Virus record (IMG/VR): IMGVR_UViG_3300007542_000084
Span: 1 to 34,693 of that record
Origin: a virus
Direction: 5' to 3' (one strand)
DNA: 34,693 nt
A program made the translations under genes and the position numbers. The stretch's first letter is position 1. Each line of letters opens with the position of its first letter. Shown piece by piece: positions 11,222-32,200 of the stretch. Below the pieces are notes generated by a model that was not told the origin of the DNA, ran no database searches, and saw nothing but the letters and a program-made list of their open reading frames with translations.

Positions 11222-12337
11222 ATGCAAGATTTAGAAATCGTTAAGGAATTTCTTCGTAAAAGACCAGGGTATCTTAAGAAGGGAAACTTAACAGTACAAA
11301 CCGCAATGGCACTGCAATATGATAGCTATCAATTTAGCGAAGAAGTCATAAAAAAAGCCAAGAAAGAAGTAAAAAAAGAATATTCTAATCTCTTAAAACA
11401 AAAAGAAGTAATAAAAATAGTGCCGCCAAAGATTGAAATAACAGCAGAAATGCTGGCTAAATTTAATGAATTGGCAAAACAAATGGGAATGAAAGGGCTT
11501 GAAGCTCCTATATCAGAAGAAGACAATTTAAGTTCTATACTTCAAAGAAAGCAAGCTTTAAAAGGCTTTCATACTCCATCAATAAAAGATCAAGTTGGAA
11601 TGCATATATTACTTGGATGTAATCACGTTCCTTTTCACAACAAACAATTACATCGCGGAATAATTGAGCTAATCAAAGACTTTCCGGAACTAATAAAAGG
11701 ATTTCACTTAATGGGTGATTTCTTAGATTTAAACCCACTATCAAGTCATGATAGAGGAAGATTCACTGCTGTACCTGGACTCACATTAAATGATGAGTAT
11801 CAAATTGGAAGTGATTTACTTTATGATTTTGACCATGTATTACCAAAGGGAACATGGAAAACATACCTATATGGTAACCATGAGGATAGATATAATAGGT
11901 GGATGTCCATAATGGACAATGCAAAAACACCTTTGATATCTCCAGAAGAAGGGTTAAGATTATGGCAGAGGGGATATAATGTAAAGACTAGATGGAGTCA
12001 GGATTTTATTACAATTGGTAATGATTTCGACATATTTCATGGTATTTACTTTAGTATTCATAATGCTAAAGCTCATTTAGATAAGCTAAGAAGAAGTTGT
12101 GCTTATGTACATACTCATAGAATTCAGCATTATCAAGAAGGGCAAATGTCAGCACATAATATAGGTGCTTGTGCAGACTTTAACGCAAAGGCGTTTAATT
12201 ACGCTTCTAGACCAATGAAAGCACAATGGGCTAATGGATTTGCAATAAATATGATTGATGATTCTGGAAAAAGCAATATTACACAAATAAAAGTTGATCT
12301 TTTAGGTCACTTCTATTTTGGAGGAAAAAAGTATTAA
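11222..12337 (+). CDS. Calcineurin-like metallophosphoesterase with altered first motif
   Basis: 371 residues. Residues 1-125 are helical and charged, without known motifs. The phosphoesterase domain follows in the standard order: motif I LLGCNHVPFHN (about 130-140), MGDFLDLN (164-171), YGNHEDR (217-223), FHG (H273) and VHTHR (H297, H299). These residues normally bind two metals and cut phosphate esters of nucleic acids, proteins or small molecules. The usual motif I is D-x-H; here it is C133-N134-H135, so a metal-binding Asp is replaced by Cys. The final motif is VHTH in place of GHTH. It is the first gene behind a strong promoter and stands before ring and muzzle genes, so it may act in head-tail assembly or DNA processing. 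The substrate cannot be inferred. Confidence 0.82.
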   Translation: MQDLEIVKEFLRKRPGYLKKGNLTVQTAMALQYDSYQFSEEVIKKAKKEVKKEYSNLLKQKEVIKIVPPKIEITAEMLAKFNELAKQMGMKGLEAPISEEDNLSSILQRKQALKGFHTPSIKDQVGMHILLGCNHVPFHNKQLHRGIIELIKDFPELIKGFHLMGDFLDLNPLSSHDRGRFTAVPGLTLNDEYQIGSDLLYDFDHVLPKGTWKTYLYGNHEDRYNRWMSIMDNAKTPLISPEEGLRLWQRGYNVKTRWSQDFITIGNDFDIFHGIYFSIHNAKAHLDKLRRSCAYVHTHRIQHYQEGQMSAHNIGACADFNAKAFNYASRPMKAQWANGFAINMIDDSGKSNITQIKVDLLGHFYFGGKKY

Positions 12338-13520: not shown

Positions 13521-14228
13521 ATGGCAAGCACAGGTAATTTAGTTAGTATAAAAATGATAGCTGATAGACTAATGAGAAATCCTTTGATGAAGGATCTTAA
13601 TTATGAGTTTATTGTTGACAATGCAATTCAGGTGTTAAGAATACTTGACGCTCCTTCTATTTATGTTAAAAGAAGAGAGGGATTAAATGTGGTAAATTTC
13701 CGGGCACTTAAGCCTATTGATATGGTAAAAATTGATGGAATCTCAAGAGTTGATTCTGGATCACCAATACCATTGTCTTCTAGTGAAGATGACTCTCAAG
13801 ATTTCTTTCATGTTGGAAATAATATGCCAAGCAGAAAGGACTTTACATACTCAATAAATAGTAAGTACATAAATGTAAATTTTGAGAAAGGTGATATTCA
13901 TATAATCTACAAAGCAATAGCAGTAGATGAGGAATGTTATCCTCTTGTATTAGATGATGAAACACTTCTTAGATGTGTTGAAAGTTATATTAAATGGAAA
14001 TGGTATGATATGTTAAATGATATGGACATGTTATCTGATAGAAAACTAAATAAAGCTGAAGTTGACTACTGTTTTAATGTTGGACAAGCTGATTCTAGAT
14101 TGAAAATGCCAAGTGAGGACGAGATGGAGACATTAACAAATATGATTACACAAATACTTCCAAGCAGAACTGAATTCAAAAGTAGATTTGAATTTCTTGG
14201 TACTCAGGAAAAAATGAGAATACACTAA
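13521..14228 (+). CDS. Ring / tail connector protein, second copy type
   Basis: 235 residues. N-terminal helices (SIKMIADRLMRNPLMKDL, YEFIVDNAIQVLRILDAP) are followed by a beta domain and then a helical C-terminus (LDDETLLRCVESYIKWKWYDML, LSDRKLNKAEVDYCFN). This arrangement is shared with tail gatekeeper proteins of short-tailed phages (P22 gp4 / T7 gp11 type) and with crAss-like ring proteins. It overlaps the muzzle gene by one base (TAATG), so the two are probably made in step and assemble together. The class is moderately supported; the exact ring is unknown. Confidence 0.65.
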   Translation: MASTGNLVSIKMIADRLMRNPLMKDLNYEFIVDNAIQVLRILDAPSIYVKRREGLNVVNFRALKPIDMVKIDGISRVDSGSPIPLSSSEDDSQDFFHVGNNMPSRKDFTYSINSKYINVNFEKGDIHIIYKAIAVDEECYPLVLDDETLLRCVESYIKWKWYDMLNDMDMLSDRKLNKAEVDYCFNVGQADSRLKMPSEDEMETLTNMITQILPSRTEFKSRFEFLGTQEKMRIH

Positions 14229-17200
14229 TGATAAAAAAGCACGAAGTTAATTACTCAGGAATGTCTAAAGATTTGTCATCAGACTTACAGTCTGACAAAT
14301 ACTTTGATGCAAAAAACATACGTATATTAGCAACTGATCAAAAGAGTTCGTTTGCTGTTACAAATGAAGTTGGGAATGAACTAATTTTTACCATTCCTAC
14401 TCCATCTATTAACAGCCTTACTACAAGTATTAATTATACTGTTGGAACAACTGTAAAGTCTTTAGTTTATAAAAGAACTGAAATTACTATTCCTGGTTGT
14501 GAATTAGAAACAACATATTGGAACGGAGCATCTTTTGATACTTCTGGGACTCAAGTAATAATAGGAACAAAAGAACTTAGAGATTCAGCATTAATAGTAA
14601 CAACAGATGATGCAGGTTTTGATTGTTTCTGGGAATTAACAAACTTAAATAATGGTCTTTTTGATTTAAACTTACTCTACATGGGTAACTTGTCTTTATC
14701 AAAAAATAATCTAGTTCAAGTATTATTTAATTACGAAAACTCAGTTATACAAAAAATATACTTTATTGATGGCGTACATCAACTTAGATTTCTTAACATA
14801 CGTCAAAGTATTGCTAATGGTGATAGAGACAACCTTATAGATTTAAGTGCAAGTTCAATTGATACTGTAAGTACATTTGTATTATCACAACCATTAATAG
14901 ATGGTGTAATTGCAGGTGGCTCACATACGTCAGGAATGGTTCAATATGCTTATGGGTTATATATCCTCAATGGAGCACAAACAACCATCTCACCACCTTC
15001 AATATTAGTCCCAATAGATAAAGGAGATGGATTAGGCGGTGGAGAAGTAAATGAAGTTTTAGGAAGGTCAGTTCAATTGCTAGTTCCAAATATAGATTCT
15101 AAATTTACACATATTAAGGTATATTCTATAAAATATACTTCTTATAATGAAAATCCTGAAATAAATATTGTTGTAGATAAACAAATAGATAATTATACGT
15201 CTATGCATATTACTGACGATGGAACTAGTCAACTAGCTATATCTTTAGAATCTTTTGTATTTCTAGGATCTAGTCCAATAGTTCCTCAACATATTACAAC
15301 TAAAGACAACAGATTATTTCCTATAAATATTAAAGAAAGTAATTTCATTGTTAATCTAGATATGAGAGCTTATTCGTTTAATGCAGGAGGCACTTTATGT
15401 CAAGTATTAGATAATCCTTATTTAGATGGAAATAGTATTGGTGGAATAACTTCAACTATTACTTCTCCTGATTTTATATTGAATCCTAATCATGATGCAG
15501 TAAATAAAAACTATGATACGTTTAAATATACTTCTGCAGGCACAAAGTTTGGTGGAACGGGGAAGTATGTGAATGTAGAGGTTTGGCAGACTCAAATGTC
15601 TGATGACCTTTCTGAAGAATTGCAATTTTTAAAAGATAGAGAATTATATAGATTAGGCATTAAGTTTTACAATAGAAGAGGACAAACTTCAGACCCTAAA
15701 TGGATGATGGACTTGCGAGCACCAGAAGGAAATGTTCTTGGAAACTATAATCAACTTAAAGTAACTCTTACTTCTGCCTTTTATGTATGGCTTAATGATT
15801 CATCAAACTTTGCATCTGAGGATGACAAACCTGTTGGATACAAAATATTAAGAGCTGATAGAACATTAACAGATCAAACAATACATTCTCAAGGATTTAT
15901 AAATCCTATGGTTGCAAATCTTGTGCACACTAATAAATTTTATAGTGAAACAGATAGAAGATCTGCAGTTAATCATTTAAAAAGCGTTAAACCAGATATA
16001 GTTCCATCTGTTGTTAGATTATTTGAAACAATAACTCCAATTAATGCTTGTAAAGATTATTGGTCACTATCAACTGTTGGAACAAGTAATGGTGGTGAGG
16101 GTCGTGGTAGTAATACAGAAACATTTACTCCTGCTGATTATCATGATTATAGAGCACAAAACTTTCAGCATAATAGACTTATGCAATTTTATAGTCCTGA
16201 AGTATTATTTAGAGATAATGGTATTGACGCTAGTTATAAGTTAAAGATAGTTGGATTAATGGAGCAAAGTGCTATGCACTGTTGGGCAGCAGAAACTAAT
16301 CCAGTTAACGCAGTGAATTCTACTGATGGTAAATTTATTAATGGAATAACTGGATCAACAATAGGAGTAACAAAACAACCTATTACTGGTGATATAGACT
16401 ATTTATTTGATTGGGGTCTTTTTGGGCCAGCCAATAGCAGGGATCGTTTGCAATCTAGATTTCAGATTTATAGAGAATTTAATGGTGCTTTTCGTCCTGC
16501 ATCTGTATCTGCAAAAACAGAATGGGATATATATGGAAGTCCTGAACTAACTAATGAAGGTTCTGACTTTACTACATATAATAACGACTCGAGACTTAGG
16601 TATTCAAATAACCTAAAAACAATGCGTCTTGATGACTTAAATAAGTCAAACGCATCAAATGTAGCTACAAGCGTGTATGGATGTAATACAATAGGAGCTA
16701 AATGTATCACATTTGCTGAAGGAAAAGATGAAGATACTTTTGATATTGCAACAAGATTTTCTATTGAACGTATTCATCAGACTGCTAACATAGGATACAC
16801 AAAAGGAGTATTGCTTGCTGAATTTGTAAAAGACTTTAGCACAATGTATATAGGCAATATATACGGAGGCATGTCTTATGAATCAAAAGCAAATTCAAGC
16901 TATATAGAGATAGGAACATTCACAAACATAAATACAACATCTGTATTTATTGATTCTCCTGGAGATACTTTCGTTAATAAATTTACATTTACTAAATTAG
17001 CAAAAGATGATACAGAGATTGTAGATCATAATATTAATATAGCAGTAGAGATTGTCTCTATAAGGGTAGAAACCACTATTGATTTAAAAAATAGAAATGA
17101 TTTATCTCTTAATAGCTGGGAGAATAGATGGTTACCAAAATACTCAGAATACCAAAAATATAATAAAGTTTATTCGCAACAACCATCATTAATTAAGTCT

Positions 17201-18286
17201 GTTGGAATAGGATCTAAAGTTAAAAAGATTCAAGAATTTGACGGAAGATTAATGGCTTCTAAAGAAAAGATTCCTGGTGAATTTATTGATTCATGGACAG
17301 ATTTCTTAGAGAATGAAATTATGGATTTAGACGGTAAATTTGGGCCAATTAATGCTGTTGTAAACTTAAAAGATGAGATATTCTGTTTACAAGATACTGG
17401 AGTTGCCCATATTGCTGTTAATCCTAGAGTTCAAGTACCAGGCAGTGATGGAGTATCATTAGAGTTAGGTACTGGTGGAATCTTACATGATTATAAATAT
17501 ATAAGCACAACTACTGGATGTTTAAATAGATGGGGAACAGTTACGTCTGAAAATGCATTCTACTTTGTTGATTTAATAAACAAAGGAATAATGGTGTTTG
17601 ATGGAGCTAAAATAGGAAGATTATCAGATGCACAAGGATTTCATCATGAATTGCTTAATAGAATGAACTATGAATCTTTAGTTAAAGATAACGCTGTATT
17701 AGGCAATGGAGTATCTCTTGGATATAATCCTGTAAACTCAGATGTTTACTTTACATTTGTACAAGAAACAGATAGTTTTACTTTAGGATTTAATGAAAAG
17801 GTTAGTGCTTTTGTATCTTATTATGATTATAAACCTGCTTGGTATATAAATAAAGGTTCTGTATTAATTTCAACTGATCAAACGACTACATCTGTTTGGG
17901 AACACTTTAAAGGACAACCAAATAGTTTCTATGGAACTACATACCCTAGTTCAATTACACTACATATTGCACCTGAAGGTGATGAAATTATACTTAATGG
18001 AGCTAGTTATAAATTAGAGATGACTAAAAATGGAGTTGAATTACCACTTGAAGGACTAACTGCAGTGAGAGTTTATAATGATTATCAAGATTCGGGATTA
18101 GTTCCTCTGGTAATGAGACAAAATGTTTTCAAAAAATTCAGAAATTGGAAACTTAATTTCCCTCGCCAGATAAACACTAGAGAAAGAGTTCGTAGTGCTT
18201 GGGGGTTTGCTGAATTTGAATTTACAAACCCAAATGGGAAGAAATTAATCTTACATGACATTACAATATTCTATACACAACACTAA
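14228..18286 (+). CDS. Muzzle / tail nozzle protein
   Basis: 1352 residues, the second largest complete protein here. The N-terminus (HEVNYSGMSKDLSSDLQSDKYFDAKNIRI) is one I associate with the crAss-like proteins first annotated as P22 gp10-like tail proteins and later seen as the muzzle closing the tail of crAss001. The rest is mostly beta, with many Asn, Ser and Thr, and no enzyme motif. In the T7/P22-type plan this hexameric protein forms the end of the short tail and gates DNA exit. Gene order, ring protein just before and cargo block after, supports the call. It ends the tail operon. No terminator is visible, but a new promoter follows 20 bases later. Confidence 0.78.
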   Translation: MIKKHEVNYSGMSKDLSSDLQSDKYFDAKNIRILATDQKSSFAVTNEVGNELIFTIPTPSINSLTTSINYTVGTTVKSLVYKRTEITIPGCELETTYWNGASFDTSGTQVIIGTKELRDSALIVTTDDAGFDCFWELTNLNNGLFDLNLLYMGNLSLSKNNLVQVLFNYENSVIQKIYFIDGVHQLRFLNIRQSIANGDRDNLIDLSASSIDTVSTFVLSQPLIDGVIAGGSHTSGMVQYAYGLYILNGAQTTISPPSILVPIDKGDGLGGGEVNEVLGRSVQLLVPNIDSKFTHIKVYSIKYTSYNENPEINIVVDKQIDNYTSMHITDDGTSQLAISLESFVFLGSSPIVPQHITTKDNRLFPINIKESNFIVNLDMRAYSFNAGGTLCQVLDNPYLDGNSIGGITSTITSPDFILNPNHDAVNKNYDTFKYTSAGTKFGGTGKYVNVEVWQTQMSDDLSEELQFLKDRELYRLGIKFYNRRGQTSDPKWMMDLRAPEGNVLGNYNQLKVTLTSAFYVWLNDSSNFASEDDKPVGYKILRADRTLTDQTIHSQGFINPMVANLVHTNKFYSETDRRSAVNHLKSVKPDIVPSVVRLFETITPINACKDYWSLSTVGTSNGGEGRGSNTETFTPADYHDYRAQNFQHNRLMQFYSPEVLFRDNGIDASYKLKIVGLMEQSAMHCWAAETNPVNAVNSTDGKFINGITGSTIGVTKQPITGDIDYLFDWGLFGPANSRDRLQSRFQIYREFNGAFRPASVSAKTEWDIYGSPELTNEGSDFTTYNNDSRLRYSNNLKTMRLDDLNKSNASNVATSVYGCNTIGAKCITFAEGKDEDTFDIATRFSIERIHQTANIGYTKGVLLAEFVKDFSTMYIGNIYGGMSYESKANSSYIEIGTFTNINTTSVFIDSPGDTFVNKFTFTKLAKDDTEIVDHNINIAVEIVSIRVETTIDLKNRNDLSLNSWENRWLPKYSEYQKYNKVYSQQPSLIKSVGIGSKVKKIQEFDGRLMASKEKIPGEFIDSWTDFLENEIMDLDGKFGPINAVVNLKDEIFCLQDTGVAHIAVNPRVQVPGSDGVSLELGTGGILHDYKYISTTTGCLNRWGTVTSENAFYFVDLINKGIMVFDGAKIGRLSDAQGFHHELLNRMNYESLVKDNAVLGNGVSLGYNPVNSDVYFTFVQETDSFTLGFNEKVSAFVSYYDYKPAWYINKGSVLISTDQTTTSVWEHFKGQPNSFYGTTYPSSITLHIAPEGDEIILNGASYKLEMTKNGVELPLEGLTAVRVYNDYQDSGLVPLVMRQNVFKKFRNWKLNFPRQINTRERVRSAWGFAEFEFTNPNGKKLILHDITIFYTQH

Positions 18287-18340: not shown

Positions 18341-19060
18341 ATGCGTTATAACAAAGAACAGAAAGCCTCTATACGGCATTACATCAAAGGCTCCTTATTC
18401 GTAGGAGCTTTTGGTATTTTAACAGCTTGGGCTGTATTCCCATTAGCTTGGGTATTTAGAAAAAAAGGAAAGAAGAGCATTTTCTGGTGGTGGATGGATG
18501 ATGAGAGATTTGATTCAGAAGGAAACTACGCTTCAGATTACGTAGCTTTCATTATATTAGAAGGTGGTGCAGAAGAGACATTTAAGATAGCTTATAAATG
18601 GCATAAGAGAAATGCAGTATGGAATCTAAAGAGAGATAAATACCTTGTTGATTCTACTCCTGCTGAAATAGGAAATAATAATATTGACGTTATATCTATT
18701 CCGACAGATAATTATGTACAGTTTAGTGAGAGTGGCTCATTAACAAAATTGAGTCAAACTGGTATATGGGTTATTGATGCTGGATTAAAATTTATTCCAA
18801 TTACACCTCAAACTGATATATGGCAAATAAATGATGGAGACGAGATATCATACAAAACATCTATATTAGGTGAAGGTATGATCTGGTTTAAGCCAAAAGG
18901 AAAAGAACAATTAATGTTTAGGTACAGCCATTGCAAGATAATACAATACAAATTTCTTGGTATTATATTTTGGACTGGTTGGAGAACAGTTAAATTAGGT
19001 TACGGCAATAAGTCATATGTAATGACAGTTAAACATCAAAAAATAAAACCATGGGCATAG
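18341..19060 (+). CDS. Membrane-associated protein at the head of the ejection block
   Basis: 239 residues. One or two hydrophobic helices near the N-terminus (SLFVGAFGILTAWAVFPLAWVF, about 18-39) follow basic residues. Next come RKKGKKS and an aromatic FWWWMDDE patch, then a soluble, beta-rich domain with many Trp and Tyr. The next Met is at residue 52 and would remove the membrane segment, so the first ATG is preferred although it lies almost on the promoter. A similar layout (membrane helix, then W..DDE) is known to me from small uncharacterised phage proteins. It overlaps the muramidase gene by 10 bases. Possible roles are ejection complex, superinfection exclusion or envelope remodelling; none is proven. 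Confidence 0.6.
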   Translation: MRYNKEQKASIRHYIKGSLFVGAFGILTAWAVFPLAWVFRKKGKKSIFWWWMDDERFDSEGNYASDYVAFIILEGGAEETFKIAYKWHKRNAVWNLKRDKYLVDSTPAEIGNNNIDVISIPTDNYVQFSESGSLTKLSQTGIWVIDAGLKFIPITPQTDIWQINDGDEISYKTSILGEGMIWFKPKGKEQLMFRYSHCKIIQYKFLGIIFWTGWRTVKLGYGNKSYVMTVKHQKIKPWA

Positions 19061-21363
19061 ATCCTGCATTATTGAAAAAATTAATACCTAACTATGGCAG
19101 CATGAAGGAAAAAGATCTTAAAGAATCTCTTTCCTTTCTTGGTGATTATTCTAGTGATACAAATAAAGCTACTGAACCAAGTACTGATGATAAAAAACCC
19201 TCATCTGCATCAGGATTTAATATTGATGCATTTAAGTATGCTATAAGCATGATTGAATCTGCTGGTGGTAAACTTTTAGAAACTGGAATTAATCCTAAAA
19301 CTGGTAGGCACTACTCTAGTGCTGCTGGTAAATACCATTTCTTATATGAGTCTATAAAAAAAGACCCAATAATGAAAGGTGTATCTAAGAGAGATTTTAT
19401 TAATGATCCTGACCTTCAGGAAAGGGTAATGGATAAAGCAATAGCAGGAAATCTTGCAGGATATACTTATGGAGAAAAACCAGCTAGACAACTTATTGAA
19501 TCTACTGGGACTAAGCGTGGTATAAATGAAGTAGCTGCTATGATACATTTTCTTGGTGCCGGAGGTGCTAAGAAATTCTTAACTAGTTCAAATTTCATAA
19601 CTCCTGGAGCAGTAAATGCAACAGGGAGTGAATATGTTGATAGATTTAATAAACATTTCAAGAAATATAATAATGATAATAGTCCAACTCCTACTGAACC
19701 AGAAGTTGATAAAAATATCGTATCAGAAAATAGTCAAAAAAAAGTTGAAATAGATAATACACAAGTAGTTGTTCCTCAATTACCTAGAAGAAATGAAGGA
19801 TTAGATTTCCTCACAGATTCAGATAATGAACAACAAGTTCCTATTCAATCAAATAATGGAACTGGATTAGATTTTCTTAATAAGCAATTTGCTGAAGGTG
19901 GACAACTTGATGGTATTCAAAGTGCTGATGAACTAGTAACTAAATTTGAAGGTGGTGGTTCACATGAGCAAAACTCTTTAGGCGGTATTCCACAAGGAAA
20001 AGATTCACAAGGTAAAGTCAATCTCGTAGAAGAAGATGAAACAAAGTGGAATGACTATATTTTCTCGAATTCTTATTCGTTAGATGGCACATATCAAGGT
20101 AAAGACGGCAAATCAGTCAAACTAACTAGTTCTAATGAATTTGAAGGAGGTGGTGGTTTAGATTTATTAAGTAAACTTGGAATTGGAGGTAGTGGCGGTG
20201 CTGCTGGTGGTGCTCCAGGAGCTTCAGGATATATGGGAGCTGCTACTGGTGCTATGGAATTAGCAAATATGGCTTTTGGTCCAACAGGTATTGATACTAG
20301 TGGTAGATCTGCACCTCCTGCTGTTCCTTCAAAAGGAGCTTCTGCTGCTTCAGGAGCTATGAAAGGTATTCAAGCAGGAGCTGCATTTGGGCCTTGGGGA
20401 ATGGCGGCAGGTGCTGTAGTTGGTGGTGTTGCAGGATTAGTTGGTGGAGGTAAGGCACAAAGAGAAGCACAAGATGCTGCCGTTGCTAATGATATGAGAC
20501 TTCATAATGATGCAACTAATGATTATGCAGATGGTGGAGAATTAGATAAAACTAAACCTCCAACTAAAGATAACAACCCTGTTATACCTTCTGTCATGAG
20601 ACCAAAAGAAGATACATCATTAAACTTTACAAAAACAGGAGTAAACGATTATAATCAACCAGTCTCTGAAACATTTAATGTCCCTAATGTTAGAAACCAA
20701 TATACAACACCTAATCTTGTATCTACCGAACAAACTAATAATGTTAATTTCGATCCTGCTGTTAAAGGAGAATCTTCTAAGCAATTTTTAGATAGATATA
20801 ATGACCCTTGGACTAGAAAAGTTATGAAACAACAAACTGGACTATCTGATTCTGATATAGATAATATGATATTAAAAGGATTATCTGCAGGTACTGTCAT
20901 AGGAGGTAATGACAAAGACTCTAAAGCATCAGTTGATAGTAGAAATAATATGATTCGTTTTGGAAATGGATATCAAAATGAAAAAGGAGTTGAAACTCAC
21001 GAAAGAGTACATGTTTCTATGTTTGATTCTGCTCAAGGAAAAAACTTAATGAATGTATTAGGTGACCCTTATAAGCAAACAGCAAAAAATGCTTTTAATG
21101 ACACTAAAGATTATATGAATATGCCTCATGAAGCATATGGCAATTTTGCTGAGTTTAGAGAGAAATTAGGATTTAAAGCTGGTAGTAAAATTACACCTGC
21201 ACAACTTAAGAAAAAAGTAAAGGATTTAAAATTAGAGAATGAAAACTTTTACACAACTTTTGATGATGATAAAATAGCAGAAGCATTAAATACTATTGCA
21301 TATCAAGGTTCTGAAACACCAAAGAAAAAACAACTTACAATCGAAGATTATAGAATAGCATAA
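19051..21363 (+). CDS. Virion muramidase fused to a zinc-metalloprotease-like domain
   Basis: 770 residues in four parts. (1) About 55-210: a lysozyme-like transglycosylase domain, with AISMIESAGG (E69 as probable catalytic Glu), SSAAGKYHF (89-97) and FINDPDLQE. (2) About 215-365: Asn/Gln-rich linker with repeated LDFL and a GGSHEQNSLGGIPQG segment. (3) About 365-470: a Gly/Ala-rich hydrophobic stretch with VVGGVAGLVGGG, likely membrane-active. (4) From about 600: a zincin-like domain with HERVH at 650-654 (HExxH) and E694 or E701 as possible third ligand. Phages inject such proteins to cut peptidoglycan during entry. The protease may process cargo or host proteins. Both enzyme calls rest on motifs only. 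Confidence 0.72.
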   Translation: MGIDPALLKKLIPNYGSMKEKDLKESLSFLGDYSSDTNKATEPSTDDKKPSSASGFNIDAFKYAISMIESAGGKLLETGINPKTGRHYSSAAGKYHFLYESIKKDPIMKGVSKRDFINDPDLQERVMDKAIAGNLAGYTYGEKPARQLIESTGTKRGINEVAAMIHFLGAGGAKKFLTSSNFITPGAVNATGSEYVDRFNKHFKKYNNDNSPTPTEPEVDKNIVSENSQKKVEIDNTQVVVPQLPRRNEGLDFLTDSDNEQQVPIQSNNGTGLDFLNKQFAEGGQLDGIQSADELVTKFEGGGSHEQNSLGGIPQGKDSQGKVNLVEEDETKWNDYIFSNSYSLDGTYQGKDGKSVKLTSSNEFEGGGGLDLLSKLGIGGSGGAAGGAPGASGYMGAATGAMELANMAFGPTGIDTSGRSAPPAVPSKGASAASGAMKGIQAGAAFGPWGMAAGAVVGGVAGLVGGGKAQREAQDAAVANDMRLHNDATNDYADGGELDKTKPPTKDNNPVIPSVMRPKEDTSLNFTKTGVNDYNQPVSETFNVPNVRNQYTTPNLVSTEQTNNVNFDPAVKGESSKQFLDRYNDPWTRKVMKQQTGLSDSDIDNMILKGLSAGTVIGGNDKDSKASVDSRNNMIRFGNGYQNEKGVETHERVHVSMFDSAQGKNLMNVLGDPYKQTAKNAFNDTKDYMNMPHEAYGNFAEFREKLGFKAGSKITPAQLKKKVKDLKLENENFYTTFDDDKIAEALNTIAYQGSETPKKKQLTIEDYRIA

Positions 21364-21373
21364 AAAATATACC

Positions 21374-22627
21374 ATGGAAATAATTAAAAAATTTAACTTG
21401 CCAAACTTCATTAAAGGAAAATCCTTTTCAGAAGCCAGTGCATTGATAGCTAAAAAATTTGAAGGCAGAACTAGTCCTGAAGATATTGATACTTTGAATG
21501 ACTTGCAAGGTAGATTACAGAAAGCTCAGGAATATGTTAAAGCAAAGCAAGAGGCTATGAATAAACCTCAAGAGCAGTATCCTGAACAAGCTAAAATGAA
21601 TCCTGGAGATGCAATGCCACAAGCAGGAAACCCTATGCAAGAGCAGGGGTCAACAATTCCAGCCGGTGCTGGAATTGGTGCGGAGCCGTCAGGCTACGAC
21701 CCTGCGTCATTAGGTAATATGTTTGTTGATGGTGGGACTTTAACAGATCCATTAATTGCAGAAGGTGAGGATTTACTTAAGAGAATGAATCAAGGTGTTT
21801 TAAGTAAAGGTTCAAGACCCTACGCTGAAAGCACAACTGGAGATTTACAACCAGCAGGAGCTACTTCATTACAAACTAGAAATAATCCATATATAGTATC
21901 AAATAGTCAAGATAATAAACAAGGGCTTACAGCTTTGACAAATAGTTTAGGTTTTAATACTGATATGAATCCATCACAAAATAAAGGAGTACAAGATGCT
22001 ATGGCATCAGAACAGACTAAAGCTTATGGTGCTGGAGATTCTAAATTTAATCCAGGAGAATTACTAAGATATGCTCCTGCAGCTATGAATGCAGCACAAT
22101 TATTAACTCTTAAGAAACCAGAGCCTGTTGCATTTGATAAATTAGGTAATACCTATAATAAGCAATTCGTTGATGAAAGAGGAATACAAAATCAAGTTCA
22201 AGAATCTGTATTAAACAATAGAGATGCTTTATTAGGCTCTGCAGGAGGTTCAGGTTCAGGAGCCAGAGCTAATTTACTTGCTTCTCAATTACAAGGAGCT
22301 AAAGCACAATCACAAGCATATCAAGCTGCAACTGCAGAGAATAGACAAGAAAATAGAGCTGCAGATGAATTCAAATTAGGAGTTGATACACAAAATTTAG
22401 GTCAATCTAACTTACAGACTCAAACTAATTTGCAGTTAAAGGCAGGTTATGAAAGCAATAAATCAAAATTATTATCTCAACTAGGTAATGACCTCGGTGG
22501 AATAGGGCAAGAAGAGTTATTTAAAAAGTATCCAGAACTAATGGGATTATCCTATGGTTCAAAAGGTCAACATTTAGGCTCAGAAAAAAGAAAAAAAGAT
22601 GCAAAAAAAGCATCAAGGAACGCATAA
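21374..22627 (+). CDS. Cargo / ejection protein
   Basis: 417 residues, rich in Gln, Ala, Asn and Gly. It has a helical N-terminus (FSEASALIAKKFEGR, then a Gln/Lys coiled coil to about 65), a Pro/Gln/Gly linker, and a long helical region of small residues from about 275 (SGSGARANLLASQLQGAKAQSQAYQAATAENRQENRAA, quoted in part here only as a composition example). The C-terminus is strongly basic (EKRKKDAKKASRNA). Composition and place match the internal virion proteins that leave the capsid before the DNA (P22 gp7/gp16, T7 gp14-gp16 type) and the crAss001 cargo proteins. A VDGGTLTDPL segment resembles the ..GG.L motifs of the preceding protein. No enzyme motif is seen. Confidence 0.6.
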   Translation: MEIIKKFNLPNFIKGKSFSEASALIAKKFEGRTSPEDIDTLNDLQGRLQKAQEYVKAKQEAMNKPQEQYPEQAKMNPGDAMPQAGNPMQEQGSTIPAGAGIGAEPSGYDPASLGNMFVDGGTLTDPLIAEGEDLLKRMNQGVLSKGSRPYAESTTGDLQPAGATSLQTRNNPYIVSNSQDNKQGLTALTNSLGFNTDMNPSQNKGVQDAMASEQTKAYGAGDSKFNPGELLRYAPAAMNAAQLLTLKKPEPVAFDKLGNTYNKQFVDERGIQNQVQESVLNNRDALLGSAGGSGSGARANLLASQLQGAKAQSQAYQAATAENRQENRAADEFKLGVDTQNLGQSNLQTQTNLQLKAGYESNKSKLLSQLGNDLGGIGQEELFKKYPELMGLSYGSKGQHLGSEKRKKDAKKASRNA

Positions 22628-22645
22628 AAAACATATATTTACATC

Positions 22646-24778
22646 ATGGCAGGAATAATCCCCGATATCAGTACATCATCTTTCAAACCATTATCTCTTG
22701 ATGAGATATTAATGGTGCCTTTAGCTAAACAACAGCAAGAGGATACTGCACAATTGCAGTTAGATGAATTTGCAGCACTTGAATCTCAGGCTTTGGGCCC
22801 AGATAAAGATTATGTTTCAGGACAAATAGGTGCTTTTAAGAAAGAAGCAACAGGTTTATCAGATCAGTTGATGAATGAAGGAGTTGACAGGAACTTTATA
22901 AATAAAACAAAGTCTCTACGCAATAGAAAAACTAACGAATTGAGTCTTACTGGTAAAACTGGTCAGGCTGCTGCTGCTTATAATCAATATAAAGCTAACG
23001 AAGCTAATATAATGAAAGACCCTAGATTAACTGCTCAACAAAAGCAACTAGGACTTCAAGAAGCTTTAACTAATTACAAAGGAGTAGCTGAAGGTGGACA
23101 GTATAAGGATTATGTTGGCACAGCACATGTTGGCATACAAGATAAAGCATATGAGGTTGCAGCAAGAATGCAACCACAAGAAATTGCTGATTCATTAGGA
23201 ATAGATGTTGATAAGGATGGGTATTATACCCAAAATGGTATAAAAACTAAAATTCTTGAAGCAAGTCAAATAGAGCGTGTTATTAGACAAGCACTAGAAG
23301 GTGACCAAGATTTAATGGCTTATGCTCAAGAAATGGAGAGATTAGGTATTTCTACGGTAGATAAAGAACTATCTAAGGCAGCTCAAAATGCAGGTAATGT
23401 ATTCCAGAGAAAAGACATTAATCGTACATCATCATTGCTTCCTGCCGGAATGCAACCTAATCAAATTGATTCCTCAAAAGGAATAATAGCTCCTCCTGAT
23501 CATAACTGGGAAAGCAGAATGGATATTGGTACTCAAGGTGCATTTAATCAATTGTTAAAAATTCCTGAAGATTCTGAAAATTACGAAAGTTATTTTAAAC
23601 CTGATGGAAGTTTTACTGATCAAAAGCAAATAACAGAAAAATATGGAGTTAAAATTCCTCAAGTTGAAAAGCCTTCTGAAAAAGAAATTGAAGATGCTAA
23701 AGCATATATAGAACAAGATAAAATAAAAGATATAAAACTAGAAGAGAGAAATAAAGATAAGCATCTATTTAATAAAGAAAGTAAACCACTAGAGGAATTC
23801 AAAGCTAGAACAGAGGCGGAAGATATACTTAAGAGAAATAAGACATATAACGATAGGATACCAAATAAAGTAGCAAAAGATATTGTAAAAGATGTAAGAG
23901 AAAAAAATCCAGTATGGAATGAATTAAAACCTGAAGTAAAGAACCCAGATGGAACTATAAAAGAACCAGCAAGAAAGTGGAATGATAAAGAGGTTTATAC
24001 AGCTTATATAGGTGCTAAGAAAAGATCAGCTTTAACTGCCTCTCAGGTTATAAGCCCAAGAAATCCAGAGAATACATTTTATGCTGTTGGAGATGCCCTA
24101 CTAGGCAAAAACGGATCTCTTGCTGGTATTGTTCAAAAGAATATATCGTTAATGCTTCCTAGCGGAGAAAAAGGAGGATATAGAGTTATGATGGAGAAAT
24201 TAGGATATACTGGTGCTGAAGCTATGGATGATTTCTTAGCAGATCTAAAAGCAGGAGGTGCAGATTCTTATTCTCCAGGAATACCAGATATGCCAGGAGC
24301 AAGAAGAATCTCTTTTATTAATTCAAACACTAACAAAGCTGTTGTAATGTTTGCAGAGCCTTCAATAGAAGAGGCAAAAGCCTTTGCAAATGTTAACGAA
24401 ATTAATAAATTAATATATTCTGGCGAACCATTTAAAGAATTAGGTAAAACAAGTAAAAATGCTAATCAATATGCTGTTGCTGAATTGAGACCAGAAACTG
24501 GGCAATATGAAGGTGCTACAATTATAACTCAACCAGGAGTAGAGTTAACTCATTCTGATATGAAAGAAATATCATATGAGGCTGTTATTAGTAATGGAAT
24601 ACTTCAACCTGGATTATTAAGAGGAACAATAACCTCGGGGCCAAATAAAGGAGAAGAAATTATTAGATATAGTTTAGATGCTGAAATACAATTTGGTATA
24701 ACTGCTATAAATAAATATAACGATACTACTAGAAATGTAAAAACAAGTGCAAAACTAGCTGATGCAGGTAAACAATAA
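22646..24778 (+). CDS. Large cargo / ejection protein
   Basis: 710 residues. The first 260 are helical and Gln/Ala-rich (LAKQQQEDTAQLQLDEFAAL, GQAAAAYNQYKANEA). Residues from about 350 are highly charged Lys/Glu helix. The last 250 form a more globular region with beta strands. No membrane helix or enzyme motif is evident. It lies between the smaller cargo protein and the 1480-residue cargo protein, with two bases to the latter, so all are one transcription unit. In crAss-like virions large proteins encoded between the muzzle and RNA polymerase genes are packed in the capsid and ejected, and this one fits that set. The detailed function is unknown. Confidence 0.6.
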   Translation: MAGIIPDISTSSFKPLSLDEILMVPLAKQQQEDTAQLQLDEFAALESQALGPDKDYVSGQIGAFKKEATGLSDQLMNEGVDRNFINKTKSLRNRKTNELSLTGKTGQAAAAYNQYKANEANIMKDPRLTAQQKQLGLQEALTNYKGVAEGGQYKDYVGTAHVGIQDKAYEVAARMQPQEIADSLGIDVDKDGYYTQNGIKTKILEASQIERVIRQALEGDQDLMAYAQEMERLGISTVDKELSKAAQNAGNVFQRKDINRTSSLLPAGMQPNQIDSSKGIIAPPDHNWESRMDIGTQGAFNQLLKIPEDSENYESYFKPDGSFTDQKQITEKYGVKIPQVEKPSEKEIEDAKAYIEQDKIKDIKLEERNKDKHLFNKESKPLEEFKARTEAEDILKRNKTYNDRIPNKVAKDIVKDVREKNPVWNELKPEVKNPDGTIKEPARKWNDKEVYTAYIGAKKRSALTASQVISPRNPENTFYAVGDALLGKNGSLAGIVQKNISLMLPSGEKGGYRVMMEKLGYTGAEAMDDFLADLKAGGADSYSPGIPDMPGARRISFINSNTNKAVVMFAEPSIEEAKAFANVNEINKLIYSGEPFKELGKTSKNANQYAVAELRPETGQYEGATIITQPGVELTHSDMKEISYEAVISNGILQPGLLRGTITSGPNKGEEIIRYSLDAEIQFGITAINKYNDTTRNVKTSAKLADAGKQ

Positions 24779-24780
24779 AC

Positions 24781-27700
24781 ATGGAAAGAATAGACGACTT
24801 ATTAACAGCTAGAGAAGGTGATCTTATAAATAATCCATCAGCTCCTGAAGGAGAAGAAGGGTATTCAAATAGTGAACACTTATTAGCTCTACGTGATGAT
24901 AATAGAATAGGCCCAAATGTCCAATGGCAAGGAACAAAAAATATTGGAGATAGAGGAATAGGAGATTCTCAGTGGGATGATGCTCTTACTTATAGTGATG
25001 TAGAAGGAGATAGAATAAATGAAGTTAGAGCTGAATTACAACCATGGACTGATCAATTAGCTAATGCAGTAACACAAGCTGTTGTTGGAGAAATTGTTGG
25101 TGGTTCTATTGAGGGTGTTGGATATTTATTAGATTGGCAAGGAATGGCTAATCTTGTATCTGGTGATGAAAAAGAATTTACTAACTGGTTCTCAGATTTC
25201 GGTAAAGCTATTAGAGAAAAAACTGCAGATGCCACTCAAATATATGAGGAAACTCCAGGTGAAATGAATCTTACTGATTCAGGATACTGGTTTAAAAACT
25301 CTGTATCTGTTGCATCTACTCTTTCAATGATGTTGCCTTCTATGGCAGCAACTAAAGGACTAGGAATTCTTGGTCGTGGAGTAAGTAAACTTGCTGGCCG
25401 TGCTGGTAGAAAAATAGGTAGTAAAATTGGTAGAGAAATAGGAAAAGAGGCTTTTGATGTTGCATCAAAAATGGGTGCTAAAGCTGATTGGATGACTGAG
25501 GGTATTACTCAGGCTGTTGTATCAAGACATATTGAAAACTCAATGGAAGCTTCAGGAACATTTGAAGATGTCTATAATGAGAGAATGATGCAGAAGAATC
25601 CTGAAACTGGTGAGTTCTATACAGATGAAGAGGCTAGATTAAGTGCTTCAACTGCTGCTGCAGAAAATTACAAATATGGTTGGGCAATGGTAGCTCAAGA
25701 TATGTTACAATACTTATCTATTGGCAAAGTATTTAATCCAGTGACTAGACAAATGCAAGTTGCAGGAAAATTTGCAAAAAATACCAATATACCTCAATGG
25801 GCTAAAACTGCCGCAGATGTTGGTGGTACTTTCTTATCTGAAGCAGGTGAAGAGGGATATCAACATTACATAGCGTCTAAAGCTAAACTAGGTAGTGACT
25901 TAAGAGCAGGTTTAATTTCTCAAGAAGAATATGATACTCAATTGTCAGATGTAATGTCATCTGATGAAGCTAAGACATCAATGTTATTTGGTGGTCTTGG
26001 TGGTTCTGTATTTGCTGCCGTGGGCCCAAAAGCAAATCAAGCTTTTAAATCTAAAAGTAAAAAAGAATTTGAAGCTAATGCTTCAGAGAACTTTAATACA
26101 GCTTTAGCTCAAAAAAATAAAATGTTTGCTGCACTGCAAATAGAAAAGAATAGAGCTGACCAAACTGGTAATGCTAGAGATATTGAAATAGCTCAAGATG
26201 AAATCATATTATCAATGGTTCTTGATGGTATTAATAGCGATAACCTAGAAATGGTTATGGAGGCTATTAAGAATGGCCCGGAAATGACAGCAGAAGAGAA
26301 AGCTAAATTTGAGGAAGACAATGGATATGAATGGGATGCAGAATTAGCTAAAAAAGGTGCAGATAAAGCACTTAAAGCTGCTGCTGAAATACAAGATATT
26401 CATTTTAAGAATTTATCTAAAGCATCTAATAAGAATACTGATCCGAATATAGTTAAATCTATGTCTCGTATTGAATATCAAAACAAACAATTTTCTGAAA
26501 GAATAGGCAAATCAAAAGAAGAGCAATCTAAGAGAATTAAAGATATTAAATATGATGGCAGGAGAAATCAACCTTCTGATAATTTTAAAGCTAAAAAAGA
26601 TACACAATCTCGAATTCTTGCCACAAAGGCAATGATAGAGAGACAAGAAAAAGCACTTGAATCTTCAGTCGATAAAGAAAGCAAAGCTATGAAAAGTGAC
26701 CTCATTAAGAGGCACAATTATGAACTTAATGAATTAGAGAAAGAATATAAAGAATTAAGCAAAGCTCAAACTGATCAAACTGAAGCACAAGCAAGAGCAG
26801 ATGAATATGCTGAACAAGTGTATTCTCCAAAAGATGAAGAATCTAAAGGTGGAATTCAATTTGATATAGCTGATGGATATGTAGAAGAATTAGAGCTTAA
26901 TGATGCTATTATTGAGAATCAATTTCAACTAACAAGACTTAATGATAAGGAATTTCAAACAGCTTTAATTAATAAGCAAACTAAAGCTTTAATTGATGCA
27001 ACAACTGACAAGGTTTTACTTGAGGATTTTAAACGCAAAGTTGAAAAGGGAGATGTAAGAGGATATACAAAAGAGAGTGAGAAAAAAGCAGTAGTCGATC
27101 AAATAAGTGAAAGATTAGCTGCTATCGAAAAAGAAGAAAAAGACTTAAAGGCAAAAGAGATTAGTGATGCAGCTAAGGCGGCAAGAAGAAAGAAAGCTCA
27201 AGATAAGAAAAAGAATCCTAAGAATCCACCAAATAGTACAGTTGTTGTCCCTGTTGTGGAGGCTATTGAAGATGAAAACTTTGAAGAAGAGAAATACTTT
27301 GAAGAAGAATTTGCTGAAGAACAAGAAGAAGCTCTTGAAACTAGAATTGGTACAGGAAAATCTATTGCATTACTTGATAAGGTTGGAGTAGCAAGTGCTG
27401 GTTATATATCGTGGGTTCATGATAATTTATCTAAAATTGGTGCTAAACTTAAATATGAGGCTGCAAGAAGGGGGTATTTCAAGGCTGACATATCTAAAAT
27501 GTATAATGAAAAGGAAATAGGAATAGCTAGACGGGCTAAAGCAGCAAGATCTGCTTTTAAGAGTGCTCTTAAAAATAAAACAGAAATTCCACAGCATGTT
27601 TATGATAATTTAGAAATACAAGTATTTGTTAATGATGGTGATAAAATAAGCACATTTTTACCAGTAAAACCTCCAAATGATGCTTCAGTTATCGAGAAAA

Positions 27701-29223
27701 AAAGATATGAAGAGAATTATGCTAAAGAAAGAAAGAACATTATTGATGGTCTTCTTAGAGGAGAAGAGGTAACTACAACTGTTAAACATACTGCAGGTGG
27801 AGATTTAAAAACTCAAACTACTGACGGTGTAGTAGCAGAAAATAACATTAAAGATTTACAACAAATTGAAAAAAGTGGAAAACAACCACATATTGTATTC
27901 TCTAATTTAGACGGAAATTTAATGGAGATGGACAAAACTACTCGTAATGAGGAGTTTCGCTCTAAAAGATTAACTGCTGGAAAAGATGAGGACGGTAGGC
28001 CAACGCCTTATCGTGGTGGTTTATTTGTTATATTAAGAAAAGCAGATGGAACTCCATTTCCAGTAAGATTAAATTTCTTAAAAAATACTAATGAGCAAGC
28101 TGAAGTACTAGCTGATTTGTTAATTGATATTGCTGTACCACCTTCAAGTCAAAAAGGCACTCCAAGAACCTTAAATTTAGGAGATACTTTGTCTTTACTA
28201 AATGAAGATGTTAGAGCTAAAGTTGAAAAGCATATGGCTCCTGAAATTGCATTTTTAAAAGGAAAAAAAGGAGTTAACGACCCAACTCTTGGTCAGATAA
28301 TAAATATGTTTGTATATGTTAGTAAACAAACAGAAGGATTAACATCTCAATTATACATGAGTGGAGTTAATTTGTATTTTGGAGGAGCAAATAATTATAT
28401 TAATCTTAAAAATAAAGATAAAAATAGACAAGAACTAGTTGATTTTTTAAGAGACACTAAAAGAAGACAGTTAAATATTAACATGTGGAATAATGAGAAA
28501 GATTTCCCTGGTTATAGAGACTTTGTATTTGACAATAAGATTATTAACACAAATGTAGTTGTAGGAGAGTCTGAATTTCAAACTGAAGATGAAAAATCTT
28601 ATAATAAGCAAGGTGGAAAAGAAGCATTAGGAAGACAATTAAGAAGAGTTCAAGTATATGCAGCTCCTGTTAGTAGTAAAGTTCCTGCTAAAGCTAAACC
28701 TGTTAAGGTAGCGGCTAATCAACCAGTTAAAACTGTTGTAGATGCACCTCTTAATGTTCAAGATGTAATAACAGATGACGGTGCGGCATTAAGAATGAGT
28801 ATTAATGCTGAACTTAAGAAGAAATTTCCTGGAAAGTTCCTTATTTATGATGGTAAAAGTATTACAAAATTAGGTAATCCTGCAGATGCAATGGATGTTA
28901 AAGTTGCAATGAAAGTTGTTAATGATATGAAAAAGGAGCATGAAGAAGGTTTATCTCAGATGGATGAAGCTTTAGGTAATGACCTAAATAAGTTTGCTGA
29001 AGATGTTGAAAATTCATTAGAGTCAAAGTCCTCAGAAACTAATGATACGAAAGTTAGCAAAGATAAAAAAGAAGATGTATCTTCGACTGTTGTTAGAGAA
29101 AGACGGACTAGAGGAAGATCTATTGGTAGTGGTTCTACTTTAAGAGCTAAACCGGCTAATTCTATTAATAAAAAGGATCCAACTAAAGAAGACGATCAAA
29201 AACAACCTAAGTGTAAAGAATAA
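24781..29223 (+). CDS. Giant cargo / ejection protein with membrane-active segments
   Basis: 1480 residues. Hydrophobic, small-residue stretches are seen near 91-118 (VVGEIVGGSIEGVGYLL), 170-200 (SVASTLSMMLPSMAATKGLG) and 400-415 (LFGGLGGSVFAAVG). They are separated by charged helix and could insert in the host membrane. Residues about 430-820 are coiled-coil-like and Lys/Glu-rich, with a Lys/Arg run near 798-812 and an acidic run near 828-852. The later part (about 900-1320) looks globular, and the C-terminus is basic and low-complexity. Size and layout recall the large ejection proteins of short-tailed phages (T7 gp16 class). It is followed 17 bases later by the virion RNA polymerase, with which it is probably packaged. 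No catalytic motif is recognised. Confidence 0.62.
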   Translation: MERIDDLLTAREGDLINNPSAPEGEEGYSNSEHLLALRDDNRIGPNVQWQGTKNIGDRGIGDSQWDDALTYSDVEGDRINEVRAELQPWTDQLANAVTQAVVGEIVGGSIEGVGYLLDWQGMANLVSGDEKEFTNWFSDFGKAIREKTADATQIYEETPGEMNLTDSGYWFKNSVSVASTLSMMLPSMAATKGLGILGRGVSKLAGRAGRKIGSKIGREIGKEAFDVASKMGAKADWMTEGITQAVVSRHIENSMEASGTFEDVYNERMMQKNPETGEFYTDEEARLSASTAAAENYKYGWAMVAQDMLQYLSIGKVFNPVTRQMQVAGKFAKNTNIPQWAKTAADVGGTFLSEAGEEGYQHYIASKAKLGSDLRAGLISQEEYDTQLSDVMSSDEAKTSMLFGGLGGSVFAAVGPKANQAFKSKSKKEFEANASENFNTALAQKNKMFAALQIEKNRADQTGNARDIEIAQDEIILSMVLDGINSDNLEMVMEAIKNGPEMTAEEKAKFEEDNGYEWDAELAKKGADKALKAAAEIQDIHFKNLSKASNKNTDPNIVKSMSRIEYQNKQFSERIGKSKEEQSKRIKDIKYDGRRNQPSDNFKAKKDTQSRILATKAMIERQEKALESSVDKESKAMKSDLIKRHNYELNELEKEYKELSKAQTDQTEAQARADEYAEQVYSPKDEESKGGIQFDIADGYVEELELNDAIIENQFQLTRLNDKEFQTALINKQTKALIDATTDKVLLEDFKRKVEKGDVRGYTKESEKKAVVDQISERLAAIEKEEKDLKAKEISDAAKAARRKKAQDKKKNPKNPPNSTVVVPVVEAIEDENFEEEKYFEEEFAEEQEEALETRIGTGKSIALLDKVGVASAGYISWVHDNLSKIGAKLKYEAARRGYFKADISKMYNEKEIGIARRAKAARSAFKSALKNKTEIPQHVYDNLEIQVFVNDGDKISTFLPVKPPNDASVIEKKRYEENYAKERKNIIDGLLRGEEVTTTVKHTAGGDLKTQTTDGVVAENNIKDLQQIEKSGKQPHIVFSNLDGNLMEMDKTTRNEEFRSKRLTAGKDEDGRPTPYRGGLFVILRKADGTPFPVRLNFLKNTNEQAEVLADLLIDIAVPPSSQKGTPRTLNLGDTLSLLNEDVRAKVEKHMAPEIAFLKGKKGVNDPTLGQIINMFVYVSKQTEGLTSQLYMSGVNLYFGGANNYINLKNKDKNRQELVDFLRDTKRRQLNINMWNNEKDFPGYRDFVFDNKIINTNVVVGESEFQTEDEKSYNKQGGKEALGRQLRRVQVYAAPVSSKVPAKAKPVKVAANQPVKTVVDAPLNVQDVITDDGAALRMSINAELKKKFPGKFLIYDGKSITKLGNPADAMDVKVAMKVVNDMKKEHEEGLSQMDEALGNDLNKFAEDVENSLESKSSETNDTKVSKDKKEDVSSTVVRERRTRGRSIGSGSTLRAKPANSINKKDPTKEDDQKQPKCKE

Positions 29224-29240
29224 ATTAATACATATATATA

Positions 29241-32200
29241 ATGAAAGAGTGCAATGTACTGAATATAGCAAATGGGAAGAAATCCGAATTGCATGAACAG
29301 TTCAGAGAAATATTTCAAGATGATCAAGCTGCAGAAACTGCTTATGCAAAAGTAATTGGCGACTCATTTATGAAAAGATTTGGAGACTGGGAATACAACT
29401 ACAAAAACCCAATGGCATCTGATGAAGAGATATATTTTCATCACAACGGAATAACTATTGAAGAGGCAATAGAGGTTCAAGGATTATCTAAAAAAGAAAT
29501 TTCAAAAGAAATAGAGAATTTAAGAAAATTAGGATTGGTATCCACCAATGGAGAGCCTTTACTTAAACAAGATTTAACTAATGGTCTATGGTTCTTCACA
29601 GATAAGAATGGAGATAGAGATTATATTGATAAATTCAAATTCTCTGAATTCACAGCACAAGAAGTAGAGGAAGTAACAAACCACCTTTTATACAAATTTG
29701 TATTACAGGGAGGCAAAAAGTCATATAATGAATATAATCCTTCTCAATTAGAAGAAGGAAGAATACTTGCTTCAATAGATGCAACCATTGCTTCATATAA
29801 AGAGGCTATTAAAGGAAAAGACAATGAAACTAAACTCTTGGCTAATATCAAATTAGTAGAGAAGAATAGGGTTGAATTTAAGAATGAATTAATATCAGCA
29901 ATTGCTGTATTAGGTGTAAAAGTACGCGAAAGAATTACTGATGCAGAAGGCAACTCAATTACTGAAGTTACTGAAGCAGATAAAGGTGGTGGAGTAAATA
30001 TTCAAGAAAGTTTTGAGACTAATTCTAAAGAAACAGCAACAGTTAATACAAAAATATTTTTATCTCAAATTGAAGAGAGAGTATTTGCTGAAGATGAAAA
30101 TGGAGAAGAATTATCTGTTCCGGTTGAGTCTGGGTTTTTAGAAGAAGCTTCTTTTGCTAAATTTGATGATGTATGGAATACATTGCAGAAAATACTAGTT
30201 GATGAAGTTGGATATGGGCATGGGGATAATGTAGTCGACATATTTGATGAAATGTATAATAAAATTTATTCATTAAAAGATACTAAATTATGGATGCATG
30301 ACTTACTAGATAAGTTAAATACATATATAGCAGATAAGAATACAAATAAAATAACTGAATTTGCACAAGCGTTTAGTAAGACTAACTTAAACTACTTTGT
30401 AACACAAGTAGATGGAGGTGAATATATCGTAATTAATGCTACATCTACAAATAGTAGACAAAGTCAACTCACTAATAAATGGAATAATTCGTTTATAGCT
30501 AGATTTCTTAGTGAAAAAGGAGAATTAGCTGATAGAGAAAGAGGCGTATTAGCTCAAATATTAGAAGATACAAGAAGATCATATAATTTAGCAGATAAAG
30601 CTAGAGAGAAAGCAAAAAAGAAATTAAAAAAAGATAATGAGTTATTTTCAGATGAAACAATTGCTCAAGAGGAATATGAGGATGCTTTATTTGAAATAAG
30701 TTCAAAATCAGCAGTAGATCTAGTTAGTATTCTTCAAAGACTTGGAGCATCTGATATTTATACAGATGATGTTAATACTATGATACTCTTTAATGGTGGT
30801 GCTGCAAAAACTGATCAAACAATTGACAGTTTATATAAGGCAATTGGATTCATGCTTAATTCAAAAAAAGGGATACTAAGTGATGGATATAAATTTGTAA
30901 ATGAATCTGGTTCATTTGAAAATGTATTCAATAAAGAGTCATTTACTAAAGCTTTTGCTGAGGCTGTTGGTTTTAGAATGACAGATATGTCTGATTCTAC
31001 TGTATTATTAAATCAAGGAAAATCCGGATACACTGTATCTAATCCAACTTACATTTCTAATAAAATTAATTCCTGGAAAAAAGACCAAACTGAATTACAA
31101 GATATGTTGCTTGATAAAAGTAAGCATAATTCACAATGGATAAGCCATTTATTAGCATTAGAAGTAACAGACGCAAATAAGAGAGAACAGGAAATACAAA
31201 ATAGACTTGATAATTTTAAAGAAGGATTAGACGCGTCATTTACATCTAAAGGTAAAAATGATGGTGTAACTAATACATCAATTACAACAAATGACAATAT
31301 AAATGCTAACTTAGTCCAAATGCTTAATGATAAGCTTGGAGGGAAATCTATGTTTCCAACAATTATAGCGGCAGATAAGTCAAGAAGAATTCTTTTTGAA
31401 GGATTTGACTCATTTACATCCAATATTCAGCAAGATCCAGTTACTGGTGGAATTTATGTATCCCCGAAAGCTATCTCAATAGCTTATGGATACTTTCTCG
31501 ATGAATATAATAGAATGAAGAGGGTTAATAGAGAAAACTCTGATGACACTATTCAAAAAGTAGTACATTATCACGGCAAAGATGGTAATGGATTAAAATC
31601 ACAAATATTTCCTCAATTTAATAAAGACAGTGAAGACCCTGCTTTTAGAGAATTAAGAGAAGCTATATATGACGAGGATTTTGATAATGATAGATATGAT
31701 GGCATGTCTCCAGGACAAGAAGAGATAGTTAAAAAGTTTATAGAAAATGATATTAAAGATAGAGTATCAGAACATGCTACTAAACTAGAGGGTCTTGATG
31801 GAATAAGCAAGAAATTACTTAAAAACTATGGCACTAAATATAAAGGAAGCCCATATGTGTCTCTTGCAGGAGATTATTTTATGAATGGACTTATATCTTC
31901 AGTGGAATATACTAAATTATTCTCTGGAGATCCAGCGTATTATAAAAATAATGCAGATTTAATTAAGCGTATTCCTGCTACATATACTGATGGATTACAA
32001 TTAAGATTAGAAAATGGAGATGCACTTAGATTTAATCAAGCAACTGTATATGGCGTTGTAGAGTCGTCTAAATATGTAGATAAAATTAGAGAATCTTTAA
32101 CAGATAAATCTATTGCTGATGCTTACACTAAAGATGATGCTAAGAAGTTAGGAGGGGTAAACACTACTGACGCTCAAGCATGGATAACTCCTCGTAGATG

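Follow-up and report, generated by a model that had tools for sequence, protein, structure and literature searches.

The window analysed here, a 34,693-nucleotide stretch of viral DNA (IMG/VR record IMGVR_UViG_3300007542_000084), contains at 19051..21363 (+) an open reading frame (ORF) of 770 amino acids with no internal stops. A Pfam search of its product, C1, returned a single domain, crAss_CARG1 (PF25725), at residues 293–345 (E = 4e-15), with a score of 56.5 bits, above the curated cut-off of 27. Upstream, a gene at 14228..18286 (+) encodes a gp44-like muzzle protein (41% to phi14:2 g071; 29% to crAss001 gp44, E = 2e-50), separated from C1 by a gene at 18341..19060 (+) for a 239-residue protein with one hydrophobic segment. 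Downstream lie a second cargo protein of 417 residues (21374..22627, +), which beyond its residues 7–71 matches phi14:2 g069 and, weakly, gp45, and further cargo genes encoding proteins of 710, 1480 and at least 1817 residues (22646..34691, +), the 710-residue protein matching phi14:2 g068. C1 thus sits after the muzzle gene, with the 239-residue gene intervening, and before the remaining cargo genes, and the order muzzle, C1, second cargo gene and giant cargo genes is that of phi14:2 and crAss001. By Pfam match and synteny, the ORF is crassvirus cargo protein C1, related to phiCrAss001 gp45, and the source phage appears to be a relative of the common gut crAss phages. This homology to crassvirus cargo makes it likely that C1 is ejected, as the first-pass annotation had supposed. 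Elsewhere amid the structural genes, the product of 11222-12337 looks by eye like a metallophosphoesterase-like protein with a GNHE motif.

The CARG1 match in C1 (19927..20085, +) covers only positions 15–67 of the 133-position profile, and a complete domain was not found in the C1 chain. In phiCrAss001 gp45, the full domain occupies residues 424–555. Cryo-EM showed residues 425–552 of gp45 attached to the portal within the capsid and located another part of the protein in the tail; ejection of gp45 with its N-terminus first was proposed (PMC10172136). The missing half in the window lies at the N-terminus of the second cargo protein (residues 7–71; 21392-21586). Among 36 proteins scanned, a profile of second-cargo-gene N-termini matches gp45 499–550 and, directly after the CARG1 first half, five further C1 proteins of the fused type; whole-sequence E values of these matches run from 4e-8 to 0.0075. 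With the two halves on adjacent genes, the window protein is an atypical, split-domain C1. CARG1 is divided in this way in the window lineage and in phi14:2, and whole in the gut crassviruses. The zincin described below is carried on the first gene of the split pair, downstream of the break.

Short [FY]xxGG tags flank the modules of C1 (window positions 19888, 19945, 20140 and 20524) and of the second cargo protein (21722). They exceed shuffles in the C1 proteins of several crassviruses, with p about 0.06 for the window. Cleavage of these tags by the zincin is not favoured, because crAss001 gp45 retains the tags without a zincin.

The first-pass annotation had placed a lysozyme-like domain with E69, a Gly/Ala stretch and an HERVH motif at residues 650–654 in this one 770-residue ORF, and all three were located where it put them. 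The N-terminal domain spans residues 55–205 (19213..19665, +), and its predicted catalytic Glu69 (19255..19257, +), within the sequence FKYAISMIES, is invariant in alignments of six and then twelve sequences. In the AlphaFold2 (AF2) model, of moderate confidence (pLDDT 75), E69 ends the first helix and is followed by a hairpin. The top Foldseek matches were the lytic transglycosylase Cj0843 and the phi6 lysin, none of them significant (best E = 0.81; no PDB match with E < 0.001). As a single sequence the domain was unrecognised by Pfam, NCBIfam, PHROGs and PDB sequences. A profile of the domain finds a Leptolyngbya phage protein, a remote relative that itself resembles transglycosylases. A helical domain of some other kind, cutting no peptidoglycan, would fit the lack of a Pfam match, the moderate model and the lack of a significant fold match. 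We regard it as unlikely in view of the invariant Glu that closes helix 1 ahead of a hairpin, the lytic transglycosylases and phi6 lysin among the best fold matches, and the transglycosylase-like remote homologue. Conservation and the model together make a lysozyme/transglycosylase-like domain probable, in line with the initial reading. The linker from this domain to CARG1 is about 75–88 residues long, shorter than the 180 residues of gp45 that span some 420 Å, and this may keep the lysozyme from reaching far into the tail.

The C-terminal region (residues 558–758; 20722..21324, +) is predicted to form a zincin-like metallopeptidase domain (AF2 pLDDT 82.7, pTM 0.77). Its HERVH motif (residues 650–654; 20998..21012, +) is unlikely to have arisen by chance, since any HExxH occurs in only 0.5% of shuffles of C1, and 20 sequences, remote ones included, all retain the motif. 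A check of six further window proteins in the neighbourhood of C1 found no HExxH. Twelve sequences were aligned over residues 540–770, and a wider set of 20 takes in both copies from phi14:2, Dulem virus 41 and relative L053. Just eight columns show no variation across the 20 sequences: H650, E651, H654, Y688, E694, E701, G711 and A750, the invariance of E701 being alignment-dependent in the second phi14:2 copy. From the twelve-row alignment, AlphaFold predicted a helix, three strands (614–617, 626–629 and 634–637), the HExxH helix (645–656) and a later helix (692–706), near the start of which lies Glu694 (21130..21132, +), the predicted third zinc ligand. H693 was rejected for this role, as it varies to N, G, S or E whereas E694 is constant. 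The earlier reading of HERVH as a zincin-like motif is thus borne out in the model: the motif helix follows a three-stranded sheet, and H650, E651 and H654 together with the invariant E694 downstream give the pattern of a Glu-ligand zincin.

Foldseek searches of the zincin model against the PDB returned selecase/minigluzincins, IrrE-like proteins and deuterolysin as the best 21 matches. With E values of 0.34–1.7 and probabilities up to 0.82, none is significant, and these zinc-peptidase and IrrE-like matches are suggestive only. Against viral structure models, the domain matched structural proteins of phi4:1 and phi14:2 with E < 1e-4. As a single sequence it was unrecognised by Pfam, NCBIfam, PHROGs and PDB sequences, and single-query IMG/VR scans with whole C1 and with its C-terminus gave no matches, whereas alignment-based searches recovered relatives. 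The zincin alignment found no matches in GTDB genomes.

Between CARG1 and the zincin lies a Gly/Ala-rich segment (residues 358–498; 20122..20544, +), densest at 428–467, where Gly and Ala make up 60% of residues. Its best 19-residue Kyte-Doolittle mean of 1.45 is borderline for a membrane helix. Relatives encode a homologous stretch within their second cargo gene: identity is 57% over 138 residues to the block of L033 and 72% over 100 residues to the block of L034, whose muzzle protein makes it the closest relative to the window. In nine distinct relatives the lysozyme, CARG1 half and zincin share one ORF without the Gly/Ala block, which is encoded by the next gene. The proposal of a one-piece envelope-penetration device therefore holds for the window chain, which has all three parts, and fails for these nine relatives; the joining of lysozyme, Gly/Ala segment and zincin would be a peculiarity of the window phage and no general principle. 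An assembly artefact could also produce such a chain, which is known from a single contig and was found complete in no other relative. We consider this very improbable: the frame is open from end to end, the block is present in C1 and gone from the window's second cargo gene, as a true transfer would leave it, and a single chain of L053 likewise combines zincin with Gly/Ala segment.

The modules are combined differently among other relatives. L006 and L044 have lysozyme, Gly/Ala segment and CARG1 without the zincin, and L043 has lysozyme and CARG1 only. In L041, a record of 90,570 bases, the zincin was found nowhere. L023 and L053 have zincin ORFs near crassvirus muzzle genes, and in Dulem virus 41 the zincin stands at the start of a giant cargo protein. 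Muzzle data grouped the window with L002 at 100/100, whereas the zincin data reject both this pair (AU p = 0.003) and a wider muzzle clade (p = 0.001), a conflict which indicates that the zincin has been swapped between phages. Together with its absence from the 90-kb relative, this indicates on sequence evidence that the zincin is an accessory part, exchanged between phages.

Several further arrangements were observed. Tandem zincin copies occur in virion proteins of the Cellulophaga phages phi14:2 (L015:4839-6617) and phi17:2 (L054:4101-6317). Two gut crassviruses, cr114_1 and cr125_1, have a zincin gene placed between those for the portal and the major head protein (L055:5413-6315 and L056:5413-6525); it has in-frame stops and reads HE*AH, probably from recoded TAG. 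In the C1 of L006 (L006:3751-6303), a second lysozyme-like region by eye replaces the zincin, and CARG1 is C-terminal. A common short domain, ITMxGVxYPVxGI...MxPxKxYxF...EIP...GG, recurs in L023, L048, L014 and L054, in phage proteins that bear a zincin or lysozyme or in a gene adjoining one, and is perhaps an alternative virion anchor. On another phage contig, a chaperonin (Cpn60) gene (L029:4672-6222) and a stand-alone zincin ORF are separated by about 1.5 kb.

We propose, with a probability of about 0.6, that C1 is a crassvirus cargo/ejection protein of exchangeable parts: a portal clamp, a lysozyme, a Gly/Ala segment and an injected Glu-zincin protease. Homology, conservation, predicted folds, gene order and module exchange support this proposal, and from them we infer ejection, activity and substrate. 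The CARG1 half would clamp C1 to the portal within the capsid, with the product of the next gene probably supplying the remaining half of the clamp, and C1 would leave with or before the DNA. On ejection, the N-terminal lysozyme, judging from its position and fold, would open the peptidoglycan, and the Gly/Ala segment might conceivably enter a membrane. The C-terminal Glu-zincin would then reach the host envelope or cytoplasm as an injected protease. It would act after delivery, with a host protein a likelier target than a role as an essential assembly protease. The first-pass annotation had offered two roles for the protease, maturing the giant cargo proteins or disabling a host factor; the patchy, swapped occurrence of the zincin leans slightly towards a host-directed or accessory function.

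A close rival to the host-directed protease is self-processing, in which the zincin cleaves the chain it sits in or adjacent cargo, either ahead of injection or afterwards, freeing the lysozyme, the anchor and other modules. Zincin swapping is compatible with this too, and we see it as a substantial possibility, if short of an even chance. For polyvalent proteins, such a role of the zincin domains has been proposed, and P1 DdrB is processed before packaging, whereas the N4 virion RNA polymerase (vRNAP) is packaged unprocessed despite its zincin (PMC5512222). The modules of C1 belong in different compartments, as processing would suit; against it, the zincin is missing from close relatives that share the lysozyme and anchor of C1, one of them on a 90-kb contig. 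Gly-Gly tags between modules also persist in crAss001 gp45, in a genome without a convincing zincin; a candidate elsewhere in the crAss001 genome scored weakly (E = 0.005) and was not accepted. The portal-proximal zincin gene of cr114_1 and cr125_1 favours processing, and its place in cr114_1 between portal and major head protein counts against an injected protease. This interval is a frequent site of maturation protease genes. A third role, a zincin fold kept for structure or regulation and inactive as a protease, would resemble the C-terminal HExxH domain of N4 vRNAP, for which allosteric inhibition of the polymerase is reported (PMC12633501). It seems improbable for C1, since a pure scaffold needs no invariant E651 and ligands, and these four residues are among the only eight positions invariant in 20 sequences.

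Compared with known systems, C1 shares with phiCrAss001 gp45 (PMC10172136) CARG1, the position after the muzzle gene and a Gly/Ala hydrophobic segment; gp45 has neither this lysozyme nor a zincin, and its CARG1 is whole where the window's is split over two genes. The counterpart in phi14:2, g070, annotated from virion mass spectrometry, likewise joins the CARG1 first half to zincin in a virion protein with the second half on the next gene, but has two zincin copies and neither lysozyme nor Gly/Ala segment. Phi17:2 gp042 and its phi4:1 homologue are annotated as tail or structural proteins and place lysozyme before zincin domains in one chain; unlike C1, gp042 has a PF18013 lysozyme (E = 9e-32) and two zincins, without a CARG1 match. 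T7 gp16 (PMC8954989) also has an N-terminal transglycosylase in an ejected, membrane-crossing protein, but a protease is not described in it, and we found no sequence relation to C1.

C1 also has the trait of polyvalent proteins, its nearest known kind, in that unrelated enzyme domains, including a zincin and a lysozyme, share one chain encoded among virion genes. In those proteins, N4 vRNAP among them and thought to be injected, a zincin-like peptidase is likewise fused to lysozyme and other domains; their zincins, in 12 published clades, have the same core layout as the window domain (PMC5512222). That account does not mention crassviruses, and the window chain differs in being tied to the portal by CARG1. 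The joining of lysozyme and zincin in injected phage proteins is thus already known (PMC5512222). Within the open-access literature we found no description of a metallopeptidase in crassvirus cargo, and new within it are the zincin family on crassvirus C1, the exchange of the zincin and the split CARG1.

Crassviruses are the most abundant gut viruses, and to our knowledge the functions of their cargo proteins are largely unknown. More tentatively, C1 may be a portal-anchored launcher with a swappable payload. On this view, phages would trade the protease family among their cargo proteins to suit targets that differ from host to host, and two chains would each supply half of the portal clamp. 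The two enzyme predictions, with named residues, would make part of the cargo-function question testable, aided by the presence of the zincin in the cultured phages phi14:2 and phi17:2; the split portal domain adds a prediction that bears directly on structure.
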